This document shows, in pieces, positions 37,297 through 43,773 of a stretch of DNA of 64,000 nucleotides (its first letter is position 1; every line of letters begins with the position of its first letter). The notes beneath the pieces are model-generated. The model saw only the letters and a program-made list of their open reading frames with translations, was not told where the DNA came from and did no database searches. The stretch covers positions 1 to 64,000 of the forward strand of contig NZ_JRJE01000001.1 of assembly GCF_000763295.1 (NCBI RefSeq). The letters run 5' to 3'. The position numbers and the translations under genes are program-made. The DNA is from Thalassospira australica (GTDB taxonomy: Bacteria > Pseudomonadota > Alphaproteobacteria > Rhodospirillales > Thalassospiraceae).

Positions 37297-39768
37297 TTAC
37301 TCCGCTGCGACCATCGAAAGAGGATTGAATTCATGCGCATCAACGCCTTCGGATGCGCGTTCGGCCCATGGATCAATCTGTGCGGTTTGCTGGCTGATCA
37401 TGAAACGATCAAACAGCGCCTTGCGGTTGGCTGCATCGTCAACAACACGTTCCTGAACATGTTTCAGGCCAACCCGTTCGATCCATGGGGCGGTACGTTC
37501 AAGGTAACGCGCCTCTTCGCGGTACAGCTGAATGAAGGCGCCGCAATATTCACGGACTTCTTCATCGGTTGTGACCTTGCACAGAAGTTCGGTTGCGCGG
37601 ACGTGAATGCCGCCATTGCCGCCAACATGAAGATCCCAGCCGCCATCGGTTGCCACGACACCGAAATCCTTGATGGTTGCTTCGGCGCAATTACGCGGGC
37701 AGCCCGATACCGCCATTTTGAACTTGTGGGGCATCCATGATCCCCAGGTCATCTTTTCAAGTTCAACCGCCATGCTCATCGACATTTGAGTACCAAAGCG
37801 ACACCATTCCTGCCCGACGCAGCTTTTTACGGTACGAAGCGATTTGCCATAGGCATGACCAGATACCATGCCCGCCGCATTCAGATCGGCCCAAACACCC
37901 GGCAGGTCTTCTTTTTTAACCCCCAAAAGGTCGATGCGCTGTCCGCCCGTGACCTTGACTGTCGGGATTTCAAATTTGTCGGCAACATCGGCAATGGCGC
38001 GCAATTCACGCGGGTTGGTCAGGCCACCCCACATGCGCGGAATAACGGAATAGGTGCCGTCTTTCTGGATGTTGGCGTGAACACGTTCGTTAATGAAACG
38101 CGATGCACCGTGATCAACATAAACACCTGGCCAGGCGGCCAGCAGGTAATAGTTCAATGCCGGACGGCAGACATGGCACCCATCCGATGACCTCCATTCA
38201 AGTTCCTGCATGACGGCAGGCATGGATTTCAAATCCTTGGCAATGATCAGGCGACGCACGCTGTCATGATCATGGTCGGTGCAGGTGCAAATCGGCTTGA
38301 TGGTTGCTGCCTCGTAGTCGCCGCCAAGGGTTGCCGCCAACAGGTTTTCAACAAGGCCAGAACAGGACCCGCAAGACGCGGATGCCTTGGTGTGGCATTT
38401 GACTTCATCAAGGGTTGTCAGGCCCTTTTCATTGATTGCCGAAACGATGGCGCCTTTGCAAACGCCGTTACAGCCACAGATTTCTGCGTCATCTGGCAGG
38501 GCTGCAACGGCGTCAAGAGGGTTTCCCGCAGATCCCCCCGCGAACGCCTGACCAAAGGCAAGGGTGTCACGCAACTCGGTGACGTCTTCGCCATCCTTCA
38601 TAAGCTGGAAATACCAGGCACCATCGGATGTGTCGCCATATAGGACAGCGCCCTTGATCTTGCCGTCTTCAAGGACGATGCGCTTGTAAACGCCGCGCCC
38701 GGCATCGCGGAAGACGATTTCCTCGGTTTCACCGCCACCGGAAAAATCCCCGGCGGAAAACACATCAACGCCGGTCACTTTCAGTTTGGTTGATGTGACC
38801 GACCCGGCGTAGCCGGTGGTGTCAATTTCGGCCAGATGATCAGCACAGGATTTGGCCATTTCAAACAGCGGGGCAACAAGGCCATAGCATTGGCCGCGAT
38901 GCTGGACGCATTCGCCAACAGCAAATACGGCCGGATCACTGGTGGTCATGACATCGTCAACAACGATGCCGCGTTCGACTGCGAGGCCCGCGTCTGCGGC
39001 AAGACGTCCGTTCGGACGAATGCCAACAGCCATAACCACCAGATCAGCCGGGATCATGCGCCCGTCCTTAAGGCGGACACCGGTCACATTTTCACTGCCA
39101 ACAATTTCTGCGGTATCGGCTTCGGTGATGACCGTGATGCCGCGACGTTCAAGTTCCTGGGCCAGAAGATAACCGGCCGATGGGTCAAGCTGGCGTTCCA
39201 TCACATGGCCAGCCAGATGCAGAACCGTGACATCCATGCCGCGTGATTGCAGGCCGACGGCGGCTTCAAGTCCCAAAAGACCACCACCAATGACAACCGC
39301 CGGGCCACCGTTGGCAGCAGCACCCAGCATGGTGTCGACATCATCGACATCGCGGAAGGTCACAACACCATCAAGCTTGTGGCCGGGAACCGGGATGATG
39401 ATCGGGTCAGAACCGGTTGCAAGCAACAGCTGGTCATATTCAGTTTCGGTGCCGCTTTTGGAAATCACCACCTTGCGGTCCCGGTCGACTTCAACCACCG
39501 GATCGCCGGAATAAAGGTGAATGTTGTTTTCTGTGTACCATTCCGGGGTGTTGATGACGATTTCGTCGAATTCCTTTTCCCCGGACAACAGCGGGGAAAG
39601 CATGATGCGGTTGTAGTTCACGCGCGGCTCGGCACCGAAAACGGTGATGTCGTATTTATCCGGTGCGCGGCTTAGAACTTCTTCTACGGTGCGCATGCCG
39701 GCCATGCCGTTGCCGATAACAACCAGGCGGGCCTTGGTGGCTTTTATGTTGGCAGGGACGTGGTTCAT
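37297..39768 (-). CDS. nirB: Assimilatory nitrite reductase large subunit
   Basis: 823 residues from the ATG at 39768, which has GAGGAG about ten bases upstream. An N-terminal FAD/NAD(P) pyridine-nucleotide oxidoreductase domain (VIGNGMAGMRTVEEVL) is followed by a BFD [2Fe-2S] domain (ICGCNGVCKG...CGSCSG) and a C-terminal nitrite/sulfite reductase domain. The latter has siroheme-[4Fe-4S] cysteines in KSCVGQEWC and GCPRNCAEA. It reduces nitrite to ammonium with NAD(P)H. The untranslated leader contains a paired-hairpin NasT target and an overlapping terminator, so expression is probably controlled by antitermination. Confidence 0.96.
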   Translation of the reverse strand: MNHVPANIKATKARLVVIGNGMAGMRTVEEVLSRAPDKYDITVFGAEPRVNYNRIMLSPLLSGEKEFDEIVINTPEWYTENNIHLYSGDPVVEVDRDRKVVISKSGTETEYDQLLLATGSDPIIIPVPGHKLDGVVTFRDVDDVDTMLGAAANGGPAVVIGGGLLGLEAAVGLQSRGMDVTVLHLAGHVMERQLDPSAGYLLAQELERRGITVITEADTAEIVGSENVTGVRLKDGRMIPADLVVMAVGIRPNGRLAADAGLAVERGIVVDDVMTTSDPAVFAVGECVQHRGQCYGLVAPLFEMAKSCADHLAEIDTTGYAGSVTSTKLKVTGVDVFSAGDFSGGGETEEIVFRDAGRGVYKRIVLEDGKIKGAVLYGDTSDGAWYFQLMKDGEDVTELRDTLAFGQAFAGGSAGNPLDAVAALPDDAEICGCNGVCKGAIVSAINEKGLTTLDEVKCHTKASASCGSCSGLVENLLAATLGGDYEAATIKPICTCTDHDHDSVRRLIIAKDLKSMPAVMQELEWRSSDGCHVCRPALNYYLLAAWPGVYVDHGASRFINERVHANIQKDGTYSVIPRMWGGLTNPRELRAIADVADKFEIPTVKVTGGQRIDLLGVKKEDLPGVWADLNAAGMVSGHAYGKSLRTVKSCVGQEWCRFGTQMSMSMAVELEKMTWGSWMPHKFKMAVSGCPRNCAEATIKDFGVVATDGGWDLHVGGNGGIHVRATELLCKVTTDEEVREYCGAFIQLYREEARYLERTAPWIERVGLKHVQERVVDDAANRKALFDRFMISQQTAQIDPWAERASEGVDAHEFNPLSMVAAE

Positions 39769-39807: not shown

Positions 39808-39860
39808 AAAAAAACGCCCGATGCGGCCTGCCCTTTAAAAAGGCATTTCGCAACGGACGT
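39808..39860 (-). terminator. Leader terminator of nirB operon
   Basis: On the minus strand, ACGTCCG pairs with CGGGCGT (7 bp, one G-U), then TGCG with CGCA and TGCC with GGCA, interrupted by a 1x1 and a 3x3 internal loop, with a nine-base terminal loop. Seven T follow. It lies 40 bases ahead of the nirB start codon. Its left arm shares bases with the second hairpin of the ANTAR element, so only one can form. Confidence 0.85.
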
Positions 39861-39889
39861 CGTTATCCGATGAACCCGTCTTTGGATTC
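39854..39889 (-). ncRNA. ANTAR-target paired hairpins in nirB leader (NasT binding site)
   Basis: Read on the minus strand: hairpin P1 is GAATCC-AAAGAC-GGGTTC (39889-39872), hairpin P2 is CGGAT-AACGAC-GTCCG (39869-39854), two bases apart. Both have six-base loops with A at position 1 and G at position 4, the known signature recognised by ANTAR antiterminators. P2 overlaps the terminator's left arm. NasT is encoded about 2.2 kb away, so the circuit is very likely. Confidence 0.8.
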
Positions 39890-39957
39890 TTTATATATAG
39901 GGTTGGCTTTTACGCCGGAGCTGCAGGCGACACTGCCCGCGCTCATGCCTTTCTATA

Positions 39958-39974
39958 TTCAAGCGCCATGCCAG
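39958..39974 (-). promoter_or_regulatory. Weak sigma-54-like promoter for nirB
   Basis: Minus-strand CTGGCATGGCGCTTGAA matches the sigma-54 consensus except for the important -12 GC, which reads GA. The position would give a leader of about 60 bases before the first ANTAR hairpin. Tentative. Confidence 0.35.
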
Positions 39975-40222: not shown

Positions 40223-40239
40223 TTGGCGCGCTGTTTGCA
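40223..40239 (+). promoter_or_regulatory. Sigma-54 promoter for narK
   Basis: TTGGCGCGCTGTTTGCA has GG and GC at the required ten-base spacing and matches the -24/-12 consensus at nearly every position. Transcription would begin near 40250. Sigma-54 control suits nitrogen-limitation genes under NtrC. Confidence 0.7.
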
Positions 40240-40253
40240 ATTCCTGATTTCGC

Positions 40254-40321
40254 GTGAGCAGCTTTGACGAAAGCAGGCCCAATGACGGGTGGCTCACAGT
40301 TCTTCGTCCAACGGCGGACGA
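40254..40321 (+). ncRNA. ANTAR-like paired hairpins in narK leader
   Basis: P1 is GCCC-AATGAC-GGGT (40277-40290) and P2 is TCGTCC-AACGGC-GGACGA (40304-40321); both loops are six bases with A1 and G4. An outer stem GTGAGC (40254-40259)/GCTCAC (40292-40297) encloses P1 and a GCTTT-GACG-AAAGC hairpin. Unlike the nirB leader, no U-tract terminator is evident downstream, so how binding would act is unclear. Confidence 0.6.
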
Positions 40322-40484
40322 TCAGACGTTTGGAACAGCAGCGTGATACGCGCGCAGCCTTTCCGATACGAATGACGGGTCGCCTGCGGAATCTTCAAGA
40401 TGATGCATGAGGCCCATGGGGAAAACCGTCGGTCGTTCACAGCCAAAAGCAAGCTCTGTACGACCTAACGAAGGGCTTCAAATC

Positions 40485-41852
40485 ATGGATATCAAGAACA
40501 AGGCTACACGCATCAATCTATTCAGTCTCAAGACTGTTCAGATGCGGACTTTTCATCTTACCTGGCTTTCATTCTTCCTGTGTTTCTTTGGCTGGTTCGG
40601 TATTGCGCCGTTGATGCCACTGGTGCGTGATGATCTGGGTTTAACCAAAAGCGAAATCGGCAGCACGATCATTGCATCGGTTGCCATCACGGTTCTGGTC
40701 CGGCTTTTGATTGGGCCGTTGTGTGACAAAATCGGTCCGCGCAAGACCTATACCGGTTTGTTGGTGCTTGGGTCGCTTCCGGTCATGTTGATCGGTCTTG
40801 CCGACAGCTATGAGACCTTTTTGCTTGCGCGTCTGGCGATCGGGTCAATCGGCGCATCCTTTGTGATCACGCAGTATCATACCTCGATGATGTTTGCCCC
40901 CAATGTTGTCGGGACGGCAAATGCGACAACGGCCGGTTGGGGTAACCTTGGCGGTGGTGTGACCCAGATGGTCATGCCGTTGATTCTTGCCATGGTTCTT
41001 GGCTTTGGCGTTGTTGAAACCATGGGTTGGCGTTTGGCGATGGTCTTCCCGGGGGCGATCATGCTGATCGTTGCCGTGTTGTATTGGAAGTTCACCACCG
41101 ATTGCCCGGATGGCAACTATGCCGAAATGCGCAAAAGTGGTGCGTTGAAGCCCGAAGACGACCATGCCGGTGCGACCAAGGGCATGATGTCTGCGATGTC
41201 TGATTATCGCGTTTGGGCATTGTTCCTGGTCTATGGCGCATGTTTTGGTGTCGAACTTACGATCAACAATATCGCCGCGATCTATTTCTTCGATAAATTT
41301 GATCTGTCGCTGGCGACTGCGGGCATGATTGCCGGTTTGTTTGGCCTGATGAACATTTTCGCCCGCACGCTTGGTGGTGTGTTTTCCGATAAGTTCGCCG
41401 CCAAGGGTGGTCTTTCGGGCCGGGTGAAATTCCTGTTCATGGCACTGTTCATCGAAGGGATCGCGCTTGTTGCCTTCTCGCAGATGGAAGCACTGGTTGT
41501 TGCGGTTTGCGTGATGGTCGTCTTCTCGTTGTTCGTGCAAATGTCAGAAGGGGCGACCTTCGGGATTGTGCCGTTTGTGAACCGTAAGGCGCTTGGTTCT
41601 GTTGCCGGGATCGTCGGTGCCGGTGGGAATGCCGGTGCGGTTGCGGCGGGCTTCTTGTTCAAGTCCGAGGCGCTGACGTATCAGCAAGGCCTTCTGTATC
41701 TTGGTGTTGCCGTGATCATCTGTTCTTTTGCCGCACTTGCTGTTCGTTTCTCTGCTGAAACGCAGGCCGAAGAGAAAGCACGCTTTGACAAGGCGCAGGC
41801 AGAGCGGTTTGGCACCAGTGGTGCACAAGGTCATCCGGTGCCGGCCGAATAA
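40485..41852 (+). CDS. narK: Nitrate/nitrite transporter (NarK family, MFS)
   Basis: 455 residues from the ATG at 40485 (MDIKNKATRINLFSL). It is a twelve-helix major facilitator of the nitrate/nitrite porter family. Both nitrate signature motifs are visible: GWGNLGGGVTQ in helix 5 and [16 protein letters not shown] in helix 11. It imports nitrate for the assimilatory enzymes encoded divergently, since no NrtABC transporter is present. The leader has a sigma-54 promoter and NasT-like RNA hairpins. A longer start at 40407 is possible but lies in the structured leader. Confidence 0.93.
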   Translation: MDIKNKATRINLFSLKTVQMRTFHLTWLSFFLCFFGWFGIAPLMPLVRDDLGLTKSEIGSTIIASVAITVLVRLLIGPLCDKIGPRKTYTGLLVLGSLPVMLIGLADSYETFLLARLAIGSIGASFVITQYHTSMMFAPNVVGTANATTAGWGNLGGGVTQMVMPLILAMVLGFGVVETMGWRLAMVFPGAIMLIVAVLYWKFTTDCPDGNYAEMRKSGALKPEDDHAGATKGMMSAMSDYRVWALFLVYGACFGVELTINNIAAIYFFDKFDLSLATAGMIAGLFGLMNIFARTLGGVFSDKFAAKGGLSGRVKFLFMALFIEGIALVAFSQMEALVVAVCVMVVFSLFVQMSEGATFGIVPFVNRKALGSVAGIVGAGGNAGAVAAGFLFKSEALTYQQGLLYLGVAVIICSFAALAVRFSAETQAEEKARFDKAQAERFGTSGAQGHPVPAE

Positions 41853-41997: not shown

Positions 41998-42588
41998 TTG
42001 GTAAAGCTGGAAGAATTCAATATTCTGGTGATTGACGAAGACCCCGACCGCGCCGCCATTGTCGAGCGTGGTCTGGTCGAAAGTGGCTATACCCGTGTGG
42101 CGCGGATTGGCACGTCGCACAATCTGGTGGAGCGCGTTCAGGCACTTGCACCTGATATCATCATCATTGATCTGGAAAATCCCGACCGGGACACGCTGGA
42201 ACAGATGTTTCAGGTGTCACGCGCCATTGCGCGCCCGATTGCGATGTTTGTCGATCAAAGTGACGCATCCATGATTCAGGAAGCCGTTTCTGCCGGGGTG
42301 AGTGCTTATGTCGTTGATGGATTGCGTCAGGATCGCATTCGCCCCATCGTCGAAATGGCGATTTCGCGCTTTAATGTCTTTGACCAGCTCAGACGCGAAC
42401 GGGACGAAGCACAGGCAAAACTCAGCGAACGAAAATTGATTGAACGGGCCAAGGGTATCCTGATGAAGGAAAAGGGCCTGTCAGAAGAGGAATCCTATGC
42501 GCTGCTGCGCAAGAACGCCATGAAGCAAAATCGCAAGATTTATGAGATCGCGCAAAGCGTCATCACGGCGTTTCAGTTGGAGTTTTGA
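41998..42588 (+). CDS. nasT: Nitrate-responsive ANTAR antiterminator
   Basis: 196 residues. An N-terminal receiver-like domain (Asp58 in IIIIDLENP) is joined by a coiled coil (about 120-140) to a C-terminal ANTAR domain (LIERAKGILMKEKGLSEEESYALLRKNAM). The start is a TTG with AAGGG seven bases upstream; no ATG exists nearby. NasT binds paired hairpins in target leaders and prevents termination, and is held inactive by NasS without nitrate. Matching RNA targets are seen in the nirB and narK leaders. nasS follows after three bases. Confidence 0.94.
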   Translation: MVKLEEFNILVIDEDPDRAAIVERGLVESGYTRVARIGTSHNLVERVQALAPDIIIIDLENPDRDTLEQMFQVSRAIARPIAMFVDQSDASMIQEAVSAGVSAYVVDGLRQDRIRPIVEMAISRFNVFDQLRRERDEAQAKLSERKLIERAKGILMKEKGLSEEESYALLRKNAMKQNRKIYEIAQSVITAFQLEF

Positions 42589-42591
42589 GGA

Positions 42592-43773
42592 ATGGCTAAC
42601 ACGGTTCGTCTTGGGTTTGTTCCGCTTGTCGATTGCGCGATTCCGGTTGTTGCGCGGGCTATGGGATTTGCCAAACAGGAAAACATCGACCTTGAGCTGG
42701 TCCGCGAAATGTCTTGGGCGGCCATTCGTGACAAGCTGTCCTACGGCGTTTTTGAAGCGGCCCACTTGCTTGCCGGTATTCCCATCGCGGCCCGACTGGG
42801 GCTTGGTGGGGTTCCGGTTCAAAACATCGTTGTTCCCATGGCGCTTGGGCGTGGTGGAAATGCGATCACGGTTTCGACCGTGCTGTATCAGCGCATGCTT
42901 GAAGCCGACCCGGCCGCCATGCATGGGCCGCGCGGGCTGTCGGCGCGGGCCTTGAAAAAGGTGATTGATGAGGATCGCGCTGCCGGGCGACCTGTCATGT
43001 CCTTTGCGACGGTGTTCCCGTTTTCCAGCCATAATTATGAACTGCGCTACTGGATGGCGGCGGCCGGAATTGATCCGGATCTGGATGTAAACATTGGCGT
43101 GATCGCCCCGCCCCGGATGTTTGACAGTCTGCGCAATGGCTGGGTTGACGGGTATTGCGTGGGGGAACCCTGGAACCAGCGTGCGGTGTTTCATGGCGAT
43201 GGTGTGATTGTTGCGCTTAAGGATGATATCTGGGCACGCAGCCCGGAAAAAGTTCTGGGCGTGCGCGAAGACTGGGTTAATGACAATGCCGATACCGCAG
43301 CAGCATTGGTGCGTGCCCTTGTAAGGGCCGCCGAGTGGGCCGATAAGCCGGGCAATCGGGCCGAACTTGCGCAAATACTTTCAGAAGAAGCCAATGTCGG
43401 CGCGCCCTATGAGGTTCTGAAGGCATCCCTTACCGGCAAGCCGGTTCTGCGTCCGGGCGAAGCGCCACTTGATGTGCCTGATCGGCATGTTTTTTACCGC
43501 TATACCGCAACTTTCCCGTGGTTGTCACAGGGCAGTTGGGTCGGAACCCAGATGAAGCGGTGGGGGCAGGTGCCGCCGGATGCGGATCTGAATGCTGTCG
43601 TTCGACAGGTTTATCGCCCGGATTTGTATCGTGCGGCGGTCGCGGAACTTGATGTTGCCGTGCCCAAGCATGACTGGCGGGTCGAAGGGGCTGCACAGGC
43701 AGATGACCGTGCCTTTGTCGGGCCAGATGGCTTTCTTGATAATACGATTTTCGACCCGGAAAACGTTCGCTAG
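42592..43773 (+). CDS. nasS: Nitrate sensor NasS (NrtA-like)
   Basis: 393 residues related to the nitrate-binding protein NrtA but without a signal peptide (MANTVRLGFVPLVDCAIPVV), so cytoplasmic, as expected for NasS. Conserved NrtA-family blocks include HLLAGIPIAARLG and GYCVGEPWNQ. NasS sequesters NasT and releases it on binding nitrate or nitrite. The close pairing with nasT (three bases) supports equimolar expression of sensor and antiterminator. Confidence 0.93.
   Translation: MANTVRLGFVPLVDCAIPVVARAMGFAKQENIDLELVREMSWAAIRDKLSYGVFEAAHLLAGIPIAARLGLGGVPVQNIVVPMALGRGGNAITVSTVLYQRMLEADPAAMHGPRGLSARALKKVIDEDRAAGRPVMSFATVFPFSSHNYELRYWMAAAGIDPDLDVNIGVIAPPRMFDSLRNGWVDGYCVGEPWNQRAVFHGDGVIVALKDDIWARSPEKVLGVREDWVNDNADTAAALVRALVRAAEWADKPGNRAELAQILSEEANVGAPYEVLKASLTGKPVLRPGEAPLDVPDRHVFYRYTATFPWLSQGSWVGTQMKRWGQVPPDADLNAVVRQVYRPDLYRAAVAELDVAVPKHDWRVEGAAQADDRAFVGPDGFLDNTIFDPENVR

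Follow-up and report, generated by a model that had tools for sequence, protein, structure and literature searches.

The window analysed here, a 64,000-nucleotide stretch of contig NZ_JRJE01000001.1 of Thalassospira australica, contains two divergent sets of genes. On the minus strand, nirB is followed by nirD, a nasA-like reductase gene and a cysG-like gene, and on the plus strand, divergent from nirB, lie a narK-like gene, nasT and nasS (Table 1). The ATG start of the narK-like gene was assigned from conservation among relatives, and an N-terminal extension from 40407 was rejected because the reading frame of relatives is shifted and interrupted by a stop in this stretch. The adjacency of nasT and nasS identifies them as a NasS-NasT two-component regulator, and the genome encodes no ANTAR protein other than NasT. 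The start of nasT (41998) lies about 2.1 kb from the nirB leader, in agreement with an earlier note on this DNA, made from the sequence alone, which had placed nasT and nasS 2 kb away. The closest solved relatives of NasT include EutV and NasR. When aligned with 6wsh/6ww6, with the list of contacts taken from PMC8934654 and a chain offset of two mapped by hand, NasT is identical to EutV at six of the seven RNA-contact residues (Arg142, Lys143, Lys149, Glu160, Tyr164 and Met172), while Lys147 is replaced by Arg.

Table 1. Genes, promoters and RNA elements of the nirB-narK region, with positions in the window
Feature	Position	Strand	Description
nirB, assimilatory nitrite reductase large subunit	37297..39768	(-)	TIGR02374 964 bits; putative regulated gene
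Intrinsic terminator, exclusive with P2	39808..39860	(-)	ACGTCCG...CGGGCGT hairpin + T7
P2 antiterminator hairpin	39854..39869	(-)	CGGAT-AACGAC-GTCCG, 5 bp, U.G closing pair
P1 antiterminator hairpin	39872..39889	(-)	GAATCC-AAAGAC-GGGTTC, 6 bp stem, loop AAAGAC
P0, third A1/G4 hexaloop hairpin	39923..39940	(-)	GCGGGC-AGTGTC-GCCTGC, near predicted 5' end of nirB transcript
Sigma54-type -24/-12 promoter of nirB	39958..39973	(-)	TGGCATGGCGCTTGAA; consensus match, start site predicted
Sigma54-type promoter of narK-like gene	40223..40239	(+)	TTGGCGCGCTGTTTGCA; consensus match; GGC and TTTGCA conserved in genus
Outer helix and side hairpin around P1'	40254..40297	(+)	Pair counts, 18 variants
P1'	40277..40290	(+)	GCCC-AATGAC-GGGT
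Candidate anti-Shine-Dalgarno, overlaps P2' 5' arm	40298..40307	(+)	Invariant GTTCTTCGT within AGTTCTTCGT; complementary to 40468-40475
P2'	40304..40321	(+)	TCGTCC-AACGGC-GGACGA
Candidate anti-P2'	40380..40384	(+)	TCGCC; potential partner of GGCGG in P2' (40313-40317)
narK Shine-Dalgarno region	40468..40475	(+)	ACGAAGGG
narK-like nitrate/nitrite MFS transporter	40485..41852	(+)	TIGR00886 307.7 bits, cut-off 311.7 narrowly missed
nasT, receiver-ANTAR RNA-binding regulator	41998..42588	(+)	PF03861 72 bits
nasS, NMT1-like (NrtA-type) nitrate sensor	42592..43773	(+)	PF13379 246 bits

The nirB leader carries two neighbouring hairpins, P1 and P2, whose six-base loops both begin with A and have G as their fourth base (A1/G4), followed by an intrinsic terminator. 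The earlier note had described these hairpins as having stems of 6 bp and 5 bp and standing two bases apart, and the exact coordinates match the sequence. Also present as described are the GTCCG stretch common to P2 and the terminator (39858-39854), the seven U, and the 40 nt that separate the terminator from the nirB ATG (39768); the common stretch grows to 7 nt, (AC)GUCCG, when the last two loop bases are counted. Among hairpin pairs with A1/G4 loops, stems of at least 5 bp and a gap of at most 6, the one in the nirB leader is alone in the window on either strand. In first-order Markov sequences, such close pairs arise at a rate of 0.1 per 64 kb strand, and pairs with a T6 run downstream at 0.0. 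The folding energy of the terminator segment is 4.5 sd lower than that of shuffles. A switch on the plus strand was considered and rejected, the plus-strand fold of the leader region having a z of -0.43; it is the minus strand that carries the switch. A search of the whole window at gathering thresholds gave no matching Rfam family.

Upstream of these hairpins, all but one of the Thalassospira nirB leaders scanned (17 of 18) keep the promoter pattern TGGCAY...TTG(A/T)A; the exception, L072, lacks a match, and L041, its counterpart, reads N at this position. In Thalassospira, the loops of P1 and of a further hairpin, P0, are closed by C:G, and that of P2 by U.G. We also observed that AUCC of P1 is able to pair with GGAU of P2 (39889-39854, minus strand).

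RNA folding of a transcript that ends after P2 gives P1 and P2, whereas once the terminator is complete, the fold consists of P1 and the terminator. In stepwise transcript folding, the formation of P2 costs 0.2-0.3 kcal/mol before the terminator is transcribed and 6.4 kcal/mol afterwards, so the mutual exclusion of P2 and terminator claimed earlier is reproduced as a folding switch. Because keeping P2 is this costly once the terminator has been made, the leader terminates by default, and read-through would be possible if a protein held P2. In the 14 species variants folded, the terminator has a predicted energy between -21.8 and -29.8 kcal/mol, and a run of seven or more T follows it in every one.

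The conservation of the leader was followed in the source genome and 22 other Thalassospira with nasT and nirB, and in six congeners with neither. P1, P2, all their A1/G4 residues and the terminator are retained in all 23 species encoding nasT, with a linker of 2-3 nt; in the six without nasT, nirB and the leader element are absent too. Model R1 reaches 45-53 bits in each of the 23 nasT genomes and does not exceed 26.8 bits in the six others, and genome-wide it finds a single strong site per Thalassospira genome, that of nirB. Its other matches in the source genome stay at or below 19.2 bits, which is chance level, and lend no support to a wider regulon. Within the loops of P1 and P2, positions 3 and 5 vary over the 23 species and positions 1 and 4 do not (AAAGAC, AACGAC, AATGAC, AATGGC and AATGTC occur). 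The earlier note would have given up its proposal had the loop residues proved not to be conserved in close relatives, and this attempt at refutation failed.

Covariation of the stems had been named as a check by the earlier note. The P1 and P2 stems show zero variation inside Thalassospira, and evidence from covariation must therefore come from outside the genus. There, other families do carry compensatory changes: in family f22, leaders of nrtA repeat the P1-P2-terminator layout on stems of different sequence. In a set of nine sequences from Thalassospira and f22, 95.6% of cells are paired, both partners have changed in four pairs, and covariation scores higher than in any of 500 shuffles, although relatedness can inflate such scores. 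The terminator showed no covariation above its shuffles. The gene order in the relatives with nrtA leaders is nasT-nasS-[P1-P2-terminator]-nrtA...nirBD-nasA, and a wider scan found P1-P2-terminator leaders upstream of nirB or nrtA in Caenispirillum, Niveispirillum, Tistlia, Jiella and Burkholderiales.

Some features of these leaders deserve separate mention. The invariance of the P1/P2 stems (39889-39854, minus strand) over 23 species goes beyond what base pairing needs, and the P2 stem CGGAU/GUCCG is retained also in Caenispirillum, Niveispirillum and Tistlia. A nirB leader of another family (L158, genome G473) has P1 as CGTCC-AATGGC-GGGCG, a P2 loop AAAGCT and a T7 terminator. In the nrtA leaders L050 and L052, the two A1/G4 hairpins are separated by about 23-26 nt that contain an additional hairpin, an arrangement unusual for ANTAR leaders.

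P0, upstream of P1, is a third hairpin with an A1/G4 hexaloop. Both residues are retained in 23 of 23 Thalassospira among otherwise diverse loops (AGTGTC, AAGGTC, AGAGCC, AAAGCT, ACAGAT and AGCGAC), and the stem of L017 has an A.C mismatch. Pairing in the stem reaches 97.9% across eight variants; shuffling the 3' letters, however, gives scores about as high, so the support for P0 lies in its fixed loop positions and its recurrence. Hairpins of this kind, closed by C:G, occur upstream of P1 in 23 of 42 NasT leaders, compared with 0.2 expected from shuffles; 18 of the 42 are from Thalassospira and are not independent. Other carriers of such hairpins are Niveispirillum-type genomes, with covarying stems around AACGCT, and G050 (L060), L044 and L103, and a P0-like hairpin was also seen in G046, outside the 42-leader set. 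P0 is probably an added recruitment hairpin upstream of P1. It has been proposed that P1 recruits the ANTAR protein and then hands over to P2 (PMC8934654). A third hairpin is not described in the literature examined here.

The nirB leader belongs to the ANTAR dual-hexaloop antiterminators, the tested defining features of which it shows, and the presence of P0 makes it a variant of this class. Very likely, NasT controls transcription through this leader by antitermination; that NasT binds the RNA, that nitrate governs the switch, what P0 does and that nirB is transcribed from a sigma54 promoter are the parts of this proposal that we infer. RNA polymerase would start at the sigma54 promoter, and P0, P1 and P2 would fold in turn as they are transcribed. 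Without nitrate, NasS would hold NasT, the terminator would capture the 3' arm of P2, and transcription would stop 40 nt before nirB. Nitrate or nitrite would free NasT, which would bind the A1/G4 hexaloops and hold P2 until polymerase passes the T-tract, and the resulting read-through would allow expression of nirBD and the genes behind. The leader could instead be a plain terminator or attenuator under other control, with P1 and P2 as bystanders and sigma54/NtrC as the sole control of nirB, a reading with which the sigma54-type promoters upstream of both nirB and narK and the missing P1/P2 stem covariation within Thalassospira agree. However, A1 and G4 of both loops are fixed over 23 species next to variable loop bases, neither the leader nor nasT occurs without the other within Thalassospira, and the loop positions are retained in other families although the stems differ, all of which makes mere bystanders most improbable.

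NasT antitermination at nirB is expected biology, and the leader class is a known one. NasT antitermination of nirBD in Pseudomonas aeruginosa is the subject named in the title of Romeo et al. (2012; doi 10.1099/mic.0.053850-0), cited in PMC3795266, and to the extent of that title the regulator, the nirB target and the mode of leader antitermination are the same as those proposed here. In Paracoccus denitrificans, nitrate splits the NasS-NasT complex and NasT binds the nasA leader RNA (PMC3795266), and a mutant in the leader hairpin loses growth on nitrate (PMC5424462). The target operon in Paracoccus differs from nirB, and its nasA leader lies between nasS and nasA, whereas in Thalassospira nirB has its own leader, facing narK-nasT-nasS. 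The EutV system of the Enterococcus eut genes (PMC3369931, PMC8934654) shares the two A1/G4 hexaloop hairpins and a P2 exclusive with the terminator, but EutV is activated by phosphorylation and the Thalassospira leader has three A1/G4 hairpins. The Klebsiella nasF leader and its regulator NasR (PMC7496416) share a nitrate-responsive ANTAR protein and two hexaloop hairpins, but the regulator there is a one-component protein of the NIT-ANTAR type. NasR favours C:G closing pairs in the loops selected with it in vitro (PMC7496416), as a preference and not as a strict requirement, whereas the nirB P2 is closed by U.G.

The narK-like gene on the other strand is preceded by a sister element, the pair of A1/G4 hexaloop hairpins P1' and P2'. 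To call the NasT switch complete, as the earlier note did, was thus too strong: the elements it described are all present, but P0 and the narK element had been missed. P2' is present in all 22 genus genomes aligned and A1/G4 of P1' in 21 of them, L007 being the exception with loop GAAGAT. P2' also occurs upstream of narK in Caenispirillum, Niveispirillum, Tistlia and others, and is near-invariant across several genera. Its 16-base core was found in 11 of 385 genomes of the class, with several matches by chance, as a reversed control pattern matched at a similar rate; matches upstream of narK were those of L154, L156 and L161. The linker between P1' and P2' is 13 nt, longer than the short linker of ANTAR antiterminators, and none of 35 narK-type leaders has a run of five or more T between P2' and the start codon, which excludes an intrinsic terminator as far as can be read from the letters. 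With neither terminator nor short linker, the narK element is not classed as a terminator-type member; it may answer to the same protein, NasT, through a different mode of action.

Three further observations concern the surroundings of the element. Single-base length differences led us to reject a coding leader peptide for GGCCGCC..GATGAAGC, a conserved block of the narK leader. A hairpin GGUCGU...ACGACC (40431-40465, plus strand) lies directly 5' of the narK Shine-Dalgarno region, and its stem is kept with pair changes in the genus. In L155 (G387), a narK-type P2' leader stands directly upstream of nasT with no narK detected between them, and in L100 and L105 nasT is likewise without a narK match; this layout suggests that a narK-type leader may govern nasT itself.

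As to how P1' and P2' might act, they could control translation of narK, with a segment at the 5' arm of P2' pairing with the Shine-Dalgarno or start region and NasT-stabilised P2' releasing the Shine-Dalgarno. We consider this tenable, if somewhat short of probable. In line with it, there is no T run of five or more from P2' to the start codon in the 35 leaders, and GUUCUUCGU, which never varies (within 40298-40307), could base-pair with the Shine-Dalgarno ACGAAGGG in 17-18 of 18 variants. This complementarity exceeds that of shuffles in five of six Thalassospira variants tested (p 0.003-0.053) and in L161 (0.010), L090 (0.007) and L099 (<0.004), in L090 and L099 with different sequences, but it is not significant in L017 (0.24) or in L091, L093, L095, L101, L104 and L154. 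The GUUCUU beside P2' is invariant though unpaired in the P2' state, and unforced folding disfavours P2' in most variants (P <0.1 in 10 of 18). Against control of translation, forcing P2' brought no consistent or clear gain in the predicted accessibility of the ribosome binding site (RBS), so that the model rests on the complementarity and the missing terminator; further, the 13 nt linker is to be set against the loss of EutV antitermination when 20 nt were added to the linker there (PMC8934654). In favour of it, actinobacterial ANTAR RNAs, which lack an intrinsic terminator, are reported to act on translation (PMC8164766). However, their hairpins overlap the RBS and repress, whereas P2' lies about 165 nt upstream and would activate.

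P1' and P2' could also act through Rho-dependent termination or a U-less terminator, since GGCGG of P2' and a downstream YCGCC would form a long hairpin of terminator-like geometry. This pairing holds in 18 of 18 variants, GGYCGCC recurs 3' of P2' in other genera and consensus folding predicts the long hairpin, but the U-tract is absent and covariation of the pairing is limited to a C/U change, and we regard termination of this kind as rather unlikely. It is improbable that TCGTCC-N6-GGACGA is no RNA hairpin and serves as a DNA operator of a dimeric repressor: an inverted repeat that hardly varies and lies downstream of the promoter would suit an operator, yet the change GGACGA/GGGCGA maintains a U.G pair in RNA while breaking the symmetry of the DNA, the spacer is asymmetric, the A1/G4 of ANTAR targets is retained and the closing pair is C:G. 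Bringing both leaders together, we tentatively propose that one NasT serves two divergent operons by two mechanisms, namely antitermination with three hexaloops at nirB and a terminator-free mode at narK, there most likely translation activation by freeing of the Shine-Dalgarno.

For the nirB leader, the comparison offers a comparative case of 23 species with the system and six without it. P0 bears on a question raised in PMC8934654, namely for what reason several hairpins are required if the ANTAR protein engages a single hexaloop at a time, and a recruitment hairpin upstream of P1 could be used by a model of step-by-step recruitment. If control of narK translation holds, the narK element would represent a proteobacterial ANTAR target that acts positively and without a terminator, and it may bear on the report that the Nas proteins of Paracoccus are translated only with nitrate (PMC5424462).
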